Below, in pieces: positions 3,840 to 37,637 of a stretch of 64,000 bases of DNA (the first letter of the stretch is position 1; each line of letters begins with the position of its first letter). Origin of the DNA: Dehalococcoidia bacterium (lineage in GTDB: Bacteria; Chloroflexota; Dehalococcoidia; Lucifugimonadales; UBA1123); the NCBI GenBank assembly GCA_009838465.1, contig VXRN01000067.1, positions 1 to 64,000 of the forward strand, given 5' to 3'. The notes under the pieces are model-generated. The model did no database searches. It was not told the origin of the DNA and was given only the letters and a program-made list of their open reading frames with translations. The position numbers and the translations under genes were made by a program.

Positions 3840-4331
3840 ATGAGTGACAGGGACTTCGATGTGCGCCCGATAGTCGCGGCCGACAAGCGCTGGGTCGTCG
3901 AGACGCTCGAAACTCATTGGAACTCCACCATGATGGTCAGCCGAGGCGTCTTGCATGACACTTCGTCCCAGGAGGGCTTTGCCGCCGTCCGGGACGGGCT
4001 GCCCATCGGCCTGCTGACGTATAACATTATCTGCGACCAGTGCGAGATTACGCTGATGCAGTCCATGCGCGAGGGCGCCGGCGTGGGATCGGCGCTCATA
4101 GGCGCGGTGAAAGACACTGCCATGCGAGAGGGATGCAAGCGACTCTGGCTCATAACGACGAACGATAACCTCCACGCGCTCGGCTTCTACCAGAAGAGAG
4201 GATTCACGCTCGCCGCCGTCTATCCCAATGCCCTTGCCGGGTCGCGAGAACTCAAACCCGGAATCCCCATGACCGGAATGAACGGTATCCCACTGCGAGA
4301 CGAGATCGAACTGGAAATAGCGTTGGAATAG
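3840..4331 (+). CDS. GNAT family N-acetyltransferase
   Basis: A 163-residue protein with the GNAT acetyl-CoA site REGAGVGSAL (residues 77-86; the R-x-x-G-x-G pattern) and motif B NLHALGFYQKRGF (110-122), where the Tyr is the usual general acid. It transfers an acetyl group from acetyl-CoA to an amine; the acceptor is unknown. It follows the NTF2-like gene closely and probably shares its transcript. ATG 3840 was chosen as the first Met before the conserved IRP-type strand (FDVRPIV). Confidence 0.9.
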   Translation: MSDRDFDVRPIVAADKRWVVETLETHWNSTMMVSRGVLHDTSSQEGFAAVRDGLPIGLLTYNIICDQCEITLMQSMREGAGVGSALIGAVKDTAMREGCKRLWLITTNDNLHALGFYQKRGFTLAAVYPNALAGSRELKPGIPMTGMNGIPLRDEIELEIALE

Positions 4332-4389
4332 TTCTCTCGTAGTTCATACGGGGTTGTACAGACACGATTCCGAATCCGACTTATCTTGC

Positions 4390-4395
4390 TATAAT
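4390..4395 (+). promoter_or_regulatory. Extended -10 promoter element for the efp operon
   Basis: A perfect TATAAT is preceded by TGC, giving an extended -10 (TGCTATAAT). No good -35 lies 17 bp upstream, which is common for extended -10 promoters. It would give a leader of about 115 nt before the efp start codon at 4518. The leader is unusually long for a small housekeeping gene, though I see no clear conserved RNA in it. Confidence 0.6.
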
Positions 4396-4517
4396 CGTGA
4401 TGTCCTGTTGGATAACGACTGTACCGAGGTGGCTATCACAGATTTCATCGGTTTGGAGGGTGAGGGTATATACCGTGCAGGCGGGTACACCAGAGAAACG
4501 ACTAAGGAGTGAGACCA

Positions 4518-5081
4518 ATGACAATCGGATACGGAGATCTGAGAAAGGGAATGGCCATCGAGTTGGATGGCGAGCCTTACATGGTCGTGGACTATGAGCG
4601 GAGCAAGATGCAGCAGCGCGCTCCCACGATGCGCATACGCTTCCGCGAGATTCGCAGCGGCAAGGTTCTGGATCGCAGTTTCTCGGGCTACGATGTCAAG
4701 CTCACGCAGGCAGACGTGGAACGCCGCTCCGCCCAGTACATATACGACGAGGACGACGTGTGCTACTTCATGGACACCGAGTCCTATGATCAGTTCCCCC
4801 TTCTCAAGGATCAGATAGCAGAGGAACTCAACTACCTCAAGGAAGAGATGACGGTGGATCTGGTCTTCTTCGAGGACAGTCCCATCGCCATCGAGCTTCC
4901 GATTACCGTGGACCTGCAGGTGGTGGACTCGCCGCCCGGCCTGAAGGGGGACACTGCCACCGGTGCGACTAAGCCCGCGACGCTTGAAACCGGCCTCCTG
5001 ATACAGGTGCCGCTGTTCGTGAACGAGGGCGAGTATGTCAAGGTGGATACGCGTAACGCCACCTACTTGTCCCGGGTCTGA
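4518..5081 (+). CDS. efp: Translation elongation factor P
   Basis: A 187-residue three-domain EF-P that relieves ribosome stalling at proline stretches. The KOW-like N domain (MAIELDGEPYMVV), the central OB domain and the C-terminal OB domain with PGLKGDTATGATKPATLETG and VKVDTRNATYLSRV are all clear. AAGGAG lies 8 nt before ATG 4518. The oddity is the loop tip: E. coli KPGKGQ aligns here with KMQQRA (residues 30-35), so the position of the beta-lysylated Lys34 is Gln33. The nearby Lys30 aligns with E. coli Lys31. It leads an apparent operon with xseA, one base downstream. Confidence 0.95.
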   Translation: MTIGYGDLRKGMAIELDGEPYMVVDYERSKMQQRAPTMRIRFREIRSGKVLDRSFSGYDVKLTQADVERRSAQYIYDEDDVCYFMDTESYDQFPLLKDQIAEELNYLKEEMTVDLVFFEDSPIAIELPITVDLQVVDSPPGLKGDTATGATKPATLETGLLIQVPLFVNEGEYVKVDTRNATYLSRV

Positions 5082-34517: not shown

Positions 34518-34718
34518 ATGAGCGAAAAGAAAGAGTCGAAAAAGGGATTCACGCGGCGACAGATACTCAAGGGCGCGCCGATTGCCATAGCGGGCGCGGC
34601 TGTTTTCAGCATGGTGTCCGGCCGTGTCGCGTCGAAGTTCATACGGCGGAACGAGATGCCGAACGTCCCCGAGGACTCGATCTTCGCTCCGGACAAGAAT
34701 CGCTACCCGCGGGCATAG
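34518..34718 (+). CDS. Small twin-arginine signal protein
   Basis: A 66-residue protein that is mostly signal peptide: FTRRQILKGAPIAIAGAA carries the Arg-Arg of the Tat pathway, followed by a hydrophobic stretch and a mature part of only about 25 residues (NVPEDSIFAPDKNRYPRA). Size and layout recall the small Tat-targeted proteins found beside formate dehydrogenase genes in other bacteria, but no such enzyme is here. It may be an anchor or chaperone-like subunit for an exported redox complex elsewhere in the genome. Confidence 0.7.
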   Translation: MSEKKESKKGFTRRQILKGAPIAIAGAAVFSMVSGRVASKFIRRNEMPNVPEDSIFAPDKNRYPRA

Positions 34719-34789: not shown

Positions 34790-35551
34790 ATGACGCCGAT
34801 ATACAGAGCAGCGTTTTCCCTATTAACCTTATTCACGCTCGCGCTGGTCGGCATAGTAGGATGCTCCGAAAGTTCGCCGTCTCCCACTGACCCGACGGTC
34901 GTTCCACCACCGACTTCCACTCCCGTCCCGACACCCACGCCCATAAACGTCGAAGACCTTTTGAGACGCTCCGGTGAGGCTACGTCCCGGTTAAATACAT
35001 TCCACTTCAGGCTCGAACACAACGACGAGGGCAGCACTCCGTTCAGCGACACGCTCGACATCATCGAGGCCGAGGGCGACGTCGTAAGCCCGGATAGAAT
35101 CTCAATCAGTTTTTCGGGCAGGTTCGGCGGCAGGTTCGCCATGCGCGCCAGCCTCATCACCATCGGCAGCGACAGTTATATGACCAATCCTCTCACCGGC
35201 AACTGGGAGGAAGTACCCGCCGAGGTCAGCCCGCTTGGATTCTTCGACCCTCAGCAGGGTATCGGCGCGATGATGACCGGCCTGCGAAATCCGACCCTCG
35301 CTTCCAAGGAGGGGACTGAATTCAGGATAGAAGGTGACCTAGACGTACAGGCGCTGCGCCCACTGCTCGGTGCCGTAGCCCAGGATGGTATGGTGCGTGT
35401 TGAAGTCACGCTGGATAAGGACACGCTCTACCTCAAGAGGGCTGTGATAGAGGGCCGGGTGACTGCAAGTGAGCCTGACGGCGTAATTCGTACGATTACG
35501 CTATCCAGTTACAATGAATCCATCACCATCACCGTGCCCGACACCGGCTAA
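34790..35551 (+). CDS. LppX/LprAFG-type lipoprotein
   Basis: A 253-residue exported lipoprotein. The signal peptide ends at the lipobox GIVGC (Cys25), followed by a Pro/Thr stalk (PPTSTPVPTPTP) and a domain resembling the mycobacterial LppX/LprG lipid carriers (TFHFRLEHNDEG start, NWEEVP, then the VRVEVTLDKDTLYLKRAVIEG sheet; landmark LDKDTLYL). Those proteins shuttle acylated lipids to the outer envelope. The next gene, 3 nt on, is a DHA2 exporter, exactly as in LprG-P55. The ATG at 34790 is the first Met before the signal. Confidence 0.82.
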   Translation: MTPIYRAAFSLLTLFTLALVGIVGCSESSPSPTDPTVVPPPTSTPVPTPTPINVEDLLRRSGEATSRLNTFHFRLEHNDEGSTPFSDTLDIIEAEGDVVSPDRISISFSGRFGGRFAMRASLITIGSDSYMTNPLTGNWEEVPAEVSPLGFFDPQQGIGAMMTGLRNPTLASKEGTEFRIEGDLDVQALRPLLGAVAQDGMVRVEVTLDKDTLYLKRAVIEGRVTASEPDGVIRTITLSSYNESITITVPDTG

Positions 35552-35554
35552 ATC

Positions 35555-37048
35555 TTGTCTTCGGTGACAGACAGGGACGGAAGATTCAGTCCGGGCTATC
35601 TCGCGTTGCTGCCCGTCCTCGTGGGCATATTCATCGCGGCGGACGACCAGACCGTCATAGTAACCGTCCTCCCGCAGATACTTCTCGATCTCAACGTTCA
35701 GGTGAACGAGCTCGACCGCGCTTCCTGGACGTTAACTGGATACCTGCTTGGCTACGTCGCCGCAATGCCTCTAATAGGGCGCATGTCGGACGTATGGGGG
35801 CACAGGAACCTGTACATCGCCTCCATGCTCCTGTTCATGGTCGGCTCCGTCGCCGCCGCGCTCACGACCAGCCTCAACTGGTTCGTCTTTGCCCGCGTGG
35901 TCCAGGCCGTAGGCGCTGGCGCCCTGCTGCCCATTTCCATCGCCATCGTCGCCGACCTGTTTCCTCCCGGCAAACGGGGTGTTCCGCTCGGGCTGATTGG
36001 CGCGTCTTCTGAAGCGGGAGCTGTTATAGGCCCTCTCTGGGGAGGCCTGATAGGAGAGATATGGGGATGGCCCTGGGTCTTCTGGATGAATATACCACTT
36101 GGAGCGCTCGTACTCATTCCACTGCTCGCTTTGCTTCCTTCGAGTCCCAGGTTCCCGGCCCGCATTGACTACATCGGCAGCGTGTTGCTGGCCGCAGCCC
36201 TATGCACGATTACCCTCGCGCTTGCGAGAGTAGATTCCCCCGATGTTTTATTTCTTGCATACACCTTGTCCGCTGGCATTACGTTCATCCTGTTCATCAT
36301 TAGACAGGGAAGAGCAGACTCTCCTCTGCTCCCCCTGACTATGTTCAGATCGCGCGCTTTCGGGGCAGCCAACGGCACGCACCTCCTTGTGGGAGCCGCG
36401 CTCATCATCGGAATGGTTACGATTCCGCTGATGGCGAATACCGTGCTGGAGAAGACCGCTCTGGGCGGCGGCCTGATGCTGATGCGAATGACCATTGCCA
36501 TTCCCGTTGGAGCCGTACTTGGAGGTCTTGCCTGTCAGCGCATGGACGCGCGTGTGCCCACCGTGCTGGGTCTTCTGTTGATTGCACTCGGCTACGGCCT
36601 GATGAGTTCGTGGGGAACCGGTATCGCTGATCCTGTGATGACGATTCATCTGGGCGTCACAGGTCTGGGCTTTGGATTCTTGATAGCCCCCATATCACTG
36701 GCTGCTATCAACTCGGTATCGGACGAATTGCGAGGAACGGCCTCCGCCGTCGTTACCGCCATGCGAGTAGTCGGAATGACTTTCGGCCTGGCAGCGCTGA
36801 CTGCCTGGGGCACGGGCCGCTTCGAGCAACTGGTTGTAGGTCTCGAATTGCCTCTGGCATTGCCGGGCGAGACGGCTGAGCAGACCCAAGCCCGTGTCCG
36901 AGAATTCGAGTCCGCCCTCACCGACGCGGGCCTGTCCGTCTTCAACGATTTCTTCCTGATAGCAATGGCCGTCAGCCTGATAGCCATACTGCCAGCTATA
37001 TTCATGGGGCTGAAGCAAGATGTTGATTGCGATAGCGCAGCGCGATAA
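35555..37048 (+). CDS. DHA2-family MFS exporter (14 TM), P55-like
   Basis: A 497-residue 14-helix drug:H+ antiporter-2 type transporter. The helix 1 motif DDQTVIVTVLPQI (the D1 signature of DHA2) and the motif A region GRMSDVWGHRN are clear; GASSEAGAVIGPLWGG matches motif C. It starts (TTG 35555, no strong ribosome site) 3 nt after the LprG-like lipoprotein stop, so the pair is coupled. By analogy with mycobacterial P55 it would export lipids or drugs with the lipoprotein's help. Confidence 0.88.
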   Translation: MSSVTDRDGRFSPGYLALLPVLVGIFIAADDQTVIVTVLPQILLDLNVQVNELDRASWTLTGYLLGYVAAMPLIGRMSDVWGHRNLYIASMLLFMVGSVAAALTTSLNWFVFARVVQAVGAGALLPISIAIVADLFPPGKRGVPLGLIGASSEAGAVIGPLWGGLIGEIWGWPWVFWMNIPLGALVLIPLLALLPSSPRFPARIDYIGSVLLAAALCTITLALARVDSPDVLFLAYTLSAGITFILFIIRQGRADSPLLPLTMFRSRAFGAANGTHLLVGAALIIGMVTIPLMANTVLEKTALGGGLMLMRMTIAIPVGAVLGGLACQRMDARVPTVLGLLLIALGYGLMSSWGTGIADPVMTIHLGVTGLGFGFLIAPISLAAINSVSDELRGTASAVVTAMRVVGMTFGLAALTAWGTGRFEQLVVGLELPLALPGETAEQTQARVREFESALTDAGLSVFNDFFLIAMAVSLIAILPAIFMGLKQDVDCDSAAR

Positions 37049-37057
37049 TATGAAACT

Positions 37058-37336
37058 GTGAATCGCTTCAAGGACAGGAATGCCGAACGACTTTTCAACG
37101 GTCAATTGGTTCGCAACCTGCCACCAGAGATTCGGCGTAGGGCAAGGGTGAGATTGCAGCGCGTTGTCGCGGCGGATGTATTGACCGACCTTCGTATCCC
37201 GCCCTCCCACCGTCTTGAATCTCTACGAGGGGACAGAGAAGGACAATACAGCGTACGCATAAATAGCCAATGGCGTGTGTGCTTCATCTGGACAGAACAG
37301 GGCGCAATGGAGATTGAAATTGTCGACTACCACTGA
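37058..37336 (+). CDS. higB: HigB-type toxin (RelE/ParE superfamily)
   Basis: A 92-residue basic protein with the HigB landmarks: a KxxxRLF N-terminal helix (RNAERLFNG), LRIPPSHRLESLRGDREGQYSVRINSQWRVCFIW (landmarks LESLRGDR and QYSVRIN-WRVCF) and a C-terminal strand ending VDYH. HigB cleaves mRNA on the ribosome. It is encoded first, with the antitoxin second, as is normal for HigBA. GTG start, 9 nt after the exporter stop. Confidence 0.92.
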   Translation: MNRFKDRNAERLFNGQLVRNLPPEIRRRARVRLQRVVAADVLTDLRIPPSHRLESLRGDREGQYSVRINSQWRVCFIWTEQGAMEIEIVDYH

Positions 37337-37637
37337 GGGGAAAATCCTGGATGCTGATGCGCCAATACATCCTGGGGAACATCTAGCGGAGATTCTGGAT
37401 GAACTGGATATCAGCCAGAGCCGTCTGGCCGAGACCATAGGAGTGCCCCCTGCGCATATCAACGAAATTATCGTATGCCGCCGGTCCATCACAGCGGACA
37501 CTGCGCTTCGAATCGGACAGGCGCTTGGGATGTCCCCAGAATTCTGGCTGAACCTTCAGCGTATGTATGACCTAGACGTCGCCCGCGCTTCGACTGATAC
37601 CAGCTTCATACAGCCGCTCGTGGAGGCGCCGGCCTGA
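37320..37637 (+). CDS. higA: HigA-type antitoxin (XRE HTH)
   Basis: A 105-residue protein with the HigA signature IHPGEHLAEILDELDISQSRLAETIGVPPAHINEII (landmarks HPGEHL and SQSRLAETIGV) and the C-terminal WLNLQRMYDLDVA. It binds HigB and represses the operon. A TTG start at 37320 is proposed because GGAG lies 8 nt upstream and the frame overlaps the end of higB by 17 nt. The last 20 residues (STDTSFIQPLVEAPA) extend past the usual end. Confidence 0.93.
   Translation: MSTTTEGKILDADAPIHPGEHLAEILDELDISQSRLAETIGVPPAHINEIIVCRRSITADTALRIGQALGMSPEFWLNLQRMYDLDVARASTDTSFIQPLVEAPA

Follow-up and report, generated by a model that had tools for sequence, protein, structure and literature searches.

In published work, the lipoprotein LprG (Rv1411c) and the exporter P55 (Rv1410c) of Mycobacterium tuberculosis appear as a system of mycobacteria by which the mycomembrane is sealed. 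A lipoprotein gene followed immediately by a 14-helix exporter gene in a 64,000-nucleotide stretch of a Dehalococcoidia genome (phylum Chloroflexota; the whole analyzed stretch is hereafter called the window) raises the question of whether this system also operates outside mycobacteria and, if so, what it exports in a lineage thought to have a single membrane. A first-pass annotation of the window had proposed an LprG-P55-like lipid export pair. We found this pair to be real in Chloroflexota and not an isolated oddity there: it is a member of the LprG-P55 family that is unexpectedly widespread in a phylum for which we found no previous report, our literature search having returned no paper that joins LprG and Chloroflexi. 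The two genes belong together with LprG-P55 by family and fold, by their conserved residues, and by lying side by side and evolving together, and we consider it likely that they work as an LprG-P55-type pair for lipid export.

An LprG-type lipoprotein and a P55-type exporter

The lipoprotein gene (positions 34790 to 35551, + strand) starts with ATG and encodes 253 residues. Its signal peptide and lipobox (34790 to 34864; MTPIYRAAFSLLTLFTLALVGIVGC) end in the motif IVG-C, with the lipid-anchoring Cys25 (codon 34862 to 34864) following a hydrophobic stretch, and the protein matches the Pfam family LppX_LprAFG (PF07161) at 46 bits against a cut-off of 24, over profile positions 4 to 192 of 192. 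This agrees with the LppX/LprAFG type and Cys25 lipobox given in the first-pass annotation, and 92 of the 98 members of the lipoprotein alignment match the family individually. Compared with solved structures as a single sequence, the protein finds LprF (E=0.002), and a profile of the 98 relatives ranks LprG first in the PDB (6e-31), followed by LprF (1e-22) and LppX (1e-11), with nothing significant beyond these three. In Foldseek and VIA the AlphaFold2 model (pLDDT 92.6) has LprF and LprG as its top matches (Z 21–22), then LppX (15.8) and the best other structure (12.2); the LprG entries score Foldseek E values of 7e-12 to 6e-11 and VIA Z scores of 21.2–21.7. The fold comparison with LprG that had been proposed as a check therefore places LprG first by profile and first together with LprF by structure, and the refuting outcome named beforehand, an unrelated lipoprotein fold, did not arise.

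Mycobacterial LprF and LppX are of the same Pfam family and fold, and LprF ties with LprG structurally, but LprG is clearly closer to the window lipoprotein by sequence profile, and the partner of LppX is an MmpL protein rather than an MFS exporter (PMC4055363). The carriers LolA, LolB and RseB belong to the same wider half-barrel fold class, but the match to them is much weaker (Z about 12 or less) and their partner is not an MFS exporter. LprG binds several triacylated lipids (PMC4709180). The position of its pocket residue Val91 is occupied by Phe108 in the window lipoprotein and mostly by Ala, Phe, Val or Leu in the relatives; judged from this substitution, the pocket of the window protein may be smaller. 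The same genome encodes a second LppX_LprAFG protein outside the window (G000:C10:138087-138491; L142:11678-13759, - strand); it has no MFS neighbor and carries a cyclophilin-type peptidyl-prolyl isomerase as a C-terminal fusion in a 694-residue open frame.

The exporter gene (35555 to 37048, + strand; 497 residues) begins, as had been described, three nucleotides after the lipoprotein gene, the gap ATC (35552 to 35554, + strand) lying between a TAA stop and a TTG start; GTG at 35564 is the other candidate start codon. The earlier reading of a 14-helix DHA2 exporter is borne out by a match to Pfam MFS_1 (155 bits) and by an AlphaFold2 model (pLDDT 94) with 14 long helices, in which the linker helices TMA and TMB occupy residues 206–223 and 231–253. 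The best match among solved structures is the Rv1410 homologue MHAS2168 of M. hassiacum (8pnl; 1.6e-65, vs 4.8e-33 for EfpA and 6.5e-28 for EmrB), and 8pnl also ranks first for the model in Foldseek (2.6e-24) and VIA (Z 48.3; next 40.7). The drug exporters EfpA, EmrB and QacA have the same 14-TM DHA2 architecture but resemble the window exporter less, in sequence as in structure. Both LprG-P55 and MHAS2167-MHAS2168 share with the window pair the gene order and the lipoprotein fold, a 14-TM DHA2 exporter with the ion-lock Glu and Arg and the TM1 Asp, the length of TM11 and TM12 and the co-evolution of the two genes, at sequence identities of ~34% for the exporter and 16–18% for the lipoprotein. 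The TM9-TM10 β-hairpin of MHAS2168, which is dispensable in mycobacteria (PMC10576003), is not seen in the window exporter model. TM11 (residues 390–427) and TM12 (residues 441–476) are long (36722 to 36982, + strand), and the span from R404 to F467 counts 64 residues vs 66 in MHAS2168; a 31–38-residue extension of these helices is a criterion of the P55 type, but the TM11-TM12 segment is even longer in ordinary DHA2 proteins and the extension is thus not discriminating.

An ion lock (E157-R426 in MHAS2168, E147-R417 in Rv1410) is found in 17 mycobacterial homologues and not in 46 other MFS transporters, and mutating either residue impairs the mycobacterial transporters or abolishes their function (PMC10576003, Remm et al.). 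By alignment with these proteins (PMC10576003), the window exporter has the ion-lock residues at Glu153 (codon 36011 to 36013, + strand) and Arg404 (36764 to 36766, + strand), and its Asp31 (35645 to 35647, + strand) corresponds to the transport-essential TM1 carboxylate D22 of Rv1410 and D35 of MHAS2168, a residue conserved in DHA2 proteins generally. Pair-type exporters have Glu at the first ion-lock site in 136 of 153 cases (Thr in 15, Asp in two) and the Arg in 150 of 153, and the 16 ordinary Chloroflexota DHA2 controls have the Arg in 15 cases and the Glu in none, making the Glu the discriminating residue of the lock. EfpA has the TM1 Asp and the TM4 Arg in common with the window exporter, but its ion-lock positions hold Ala and Gln. 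The exporters in which Thr replaces the Glu and the Arg is kept (part of L065-L075, L100, L128, L129 and L137) belong to families f40, f74, part of f68, f85 and f89 and, on the strength of this substitution, are possibly a different proton-coupling variant. Two further P55-like exporters, L076 and L077, carry Asp and Gln.

Distribution and shared history of the two genes

Conservation of the pair across Chloroflexota, which the first-pass annotation had named as a check, is extensive. LppX_LprAFG matches occur in 153 of 400 sampled Chloroflexota genomes and P55-like exporters (E<=5e-60) in 112; both families occur together in 103 of the 112 exporter genomes (Fisher p=1e-45), and at least 90 genomes have adjacent matches in the same gene order. 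This number is a lower bound because a more divergent MFS gene directly adjoins seven of the 15 lipoprotein loci sampled as “unpaired”; in some genomes (e.g., G043, G353) both genes exist but are not neighbors. Furthermore, in 80 independently fetched relatives—named loci obtained by a genome scan with a five-row alignment, mostly from Dehalococcoidia and SAR202 MAGs and including two Actinomycetota MAGs—the lipoprotein lies directly upstream of the exporter in 79, hence the adjacency is not due to chance; the sole exception (L194) begins at a contig edge. The window ORFs also lie in the same frame (TAA ATC TTG), a feature that we do not regard as unusual, as 24 of the 79 relatives have it and about one in three is expected by chance.

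The pair extends into Actinomycetota as well. It is present in Tsukamurella and Rhodococcus plasmids, annotated as LppX_LprAFG and MFS, and in Nonomuraea a lipoprotein ORF lies upstream of the exporter. To our knowledge, Nonomuraea has no mycolic acids. The pair is hence restricted neither to Mycobacterium nor to mycolate-bearing hosts, and the “mycobacterial” label that it had been given is too narrow.

In the exporter tree, the pair-type exporters form one clade (support 98/93) against an outgroup of 16 control rows (15 Chloroflexota DHA2 proteins and EfpA; a further control, ctl_L144, was left out of the final tree for its very long branch and probably wrong frame). Grouping with ordinary multidrug DHA2 proteins, which the first-pass annotation had held to speak against its reading, is not what the tree gives: the clade is separate and includes MHAS2168. 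The exporters of Tsukamurella, Rhodococcus and Nonomuraea, together with MHAS2168, are nested among those of Chloroflexota, beside families f33, f43 and f46, and the lipoprotein tree and the exporter tree alike join the actinobacterial pairs with those of f33/f43/f46. The expected congruence of the two phylogenies largely holds: for the same 46 loci the Mantel correlation is 0.76 (permuted maximum 0.25), 23 of 43 splits are common to both trees, and of the strong splits 14 are shared and three are in conflict. The direction of any transfer between the phyla can be read either way, the root resting on distant DHA2 controls and the Actinomycetota sample being small.

How the window lineage came by the pair can likewise be read as horizontal gain or as retention with loss elsewhere. 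The pair is rare among the sampled genomes of the same class and within the 400-genome sample the exporter's best matches (57%) come from another family, but named Dehalococcoidia MAGs also carry the pair. The contig itself is very probably native to its genome, to judge from its genes: the closest match to the window pyrG (70% identity) comes from a same-order genome, and in L190, an uncultured Dehalococcoidia locus (83% relative), a divergent MFS gene, lprG, p55 and pyrG follow one another as they do here, which together speak against a misbinned contig.

Across 154 loci, no third gene is conserved family-wide near the pair, and no lspA was seen near it in L190. Besides the divergent MFS gene and pyrG, the window neighbors are an ORF with a TAT leader and a HigBA-type toxin-antitoxin pair. 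The former (34518-34715; 66 residues, twin-arginine leader) weakly matches the “formate dehydrogenase region TAT target” model with a sub-threshold score, and L161 has a comparable ORF (4166-4849) in the vicinity of its pair. The latter, a HigB-type toxin and HTH antitoxin by Pfam (37058-37637), lies directly downstream of the exporter, and no ORF matching it is listed at that place in L190.

Substrate, envelope and alternative roles

Lipid transport, proton coupling and hand-over between the two proteins are most likely here, as mycobacterial work indicates for their relatives, and the most likely cargo, moved by the P55 mechanism, is a multi-acyl or neutral lipid. The exporter would use the proton gradient (proton antiport), by way of Asp31 and the ion lock Glu153-Arg404, to extract a hydrophobic multi-acyl lipid from the cytoplasmic membrane core; the lipid would then move along the extended TM11 and TM12 helices and enter the hydrophobic pocket in the anchored LprG-type lipoprotein, which, once loaded, would carry it towards the cell surface, as proposed for Rv1410/LprG. 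By the same analogy, Chloroflexota with the pair probably export a fatty molecule.

Which envelope would receive this molecule is constrained by the genomes. Omp85 is absent from all 25 family-bearing Chloroflexota genomes searched, the window's included, and the same search was positive in seven control genomes; no standard outer membrane therefore receives the lipid. We know of no mycolic acids in Chloroflexota. Published envelope work describes Chloroflexota without LPS and Bam genes, with an outer-membrane-like layer in Chloroflexus aggregans that is absent in Roseiflexus castenholzii (PMC7332563, PMC13319060), and Tepidiforma, a member of the Dehalococcoidia, has peptidoglycan and an S-layer (PMC10284905). 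MlaD/MCE domains occur in two of the 25 family-bearing genomes, both of family f46 (G036:C222 and G360:C92, in arrays of five and six); both genomes encode WS/DGAT and the LprG-P55 pair as well, and the pairs of this family are near relatives of the actinobacterial ones.

The first-pass annotation had named triacylglycerides or other lipids as the cargo of the mycobacterial pair. By homology the pair would transport a lipid here too, but triacylglyceride is not the obvious one in this genome. Unlike the hosts of LprG-P55, the window's host has neither Omp85 nor the wax-ester/triacylglyceride synthase WS/DGAT, for which we found no gene in its genome, so that triacylglyceride made by WS/DGAT is unlikely to be exported there; the enzyme is missing from 120 of the 153 genomes with the lipoprotein family, this one included, making it an unlikely source of the general substrate. 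WS/DGAT does occur in 45 of the 400 genomes, 33 of which have the lipoprotein family (Fisher p=5e-7, kinship ignored), an enrichment seen above all in groups f33, f46 and f74; with the MCE arrays of some f46 genomes, and with the prospect that triacylglyceride comes from another acyltransferase, this leaves specific export of triacylglyceride, as in Mycobacterium, an improbable reading that we would nevertheless put ahead of the other alternatives.

Somewhat less probable is an envelope-stress device, in which the pair would remove or relocate damaging or misplaced lipids on demand under an ECF sigma factor. In about 29 of the 80 SAR202/Dehalococcoidia loci, genes for an ECF sigma factor, RskA-type anti-sigma factors or both lie ahead of the pair in the same orientation (directly upstream in, e.g., L163:220-2865 and L204:4313-5940, and in ~27 further loci), which suggests stress control in those loci, but the window lacks the arrangement, and it did not turn up in the other sampled classes. 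Such a role is compatible with lipid export of the LprG-P55 type and does not exclude it. That the exporter is an ordinary multidrug DHA2 efflux pump merely lying beside an unrelated lipoprotein is very improbable: early descriptions of P55 had it as a drug pump (PMC10576003, PMC4055363) and the window exporter scores 207 bits against the EmrB-subfamily DHA2 model TIGR00711 (NCBIfam), albeit under the cut-off of 230, but its far greater closeness to MHAS2168 than to EfpA, EmrB or QacA in the structure ranking, its clade apart from ordinary Chloroflexota DHA2 proteins and an ion-lock Glu missing from those controls lead us to reject this reading, and the near-constant adjacency of the lipoprotein in the relatives also speaks against it.

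Implications for the LprG-P55 family

The occurrence of an LprG-P55-type pair in Omp85-less Chloroflexota, in non-mycolate Nonomuraea and in marine SAR202 bacteria suggests that a mycomembrane is not required for it, and the pair offers a concrete handle on whether the outer layers of some Chloroflexota contain lipid. We tentatively raise the broader possibility, which we regard as doubtful but worth stating, that much of the phylum, including lineages without standard outer-membrane machinery, places a multi-acyl lipid outside the cytoplasmic membrane by way of LprG-P55. If this is true, there would be an unrecognised extracytoplasmic lipid layer or pool in these bacteria, possibly the material of the outer-membrane-like layer of C. 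aggregans, and the mycobacterial system would represent a single branch within a wider Chloroflexota-Actinomycetota pathway.
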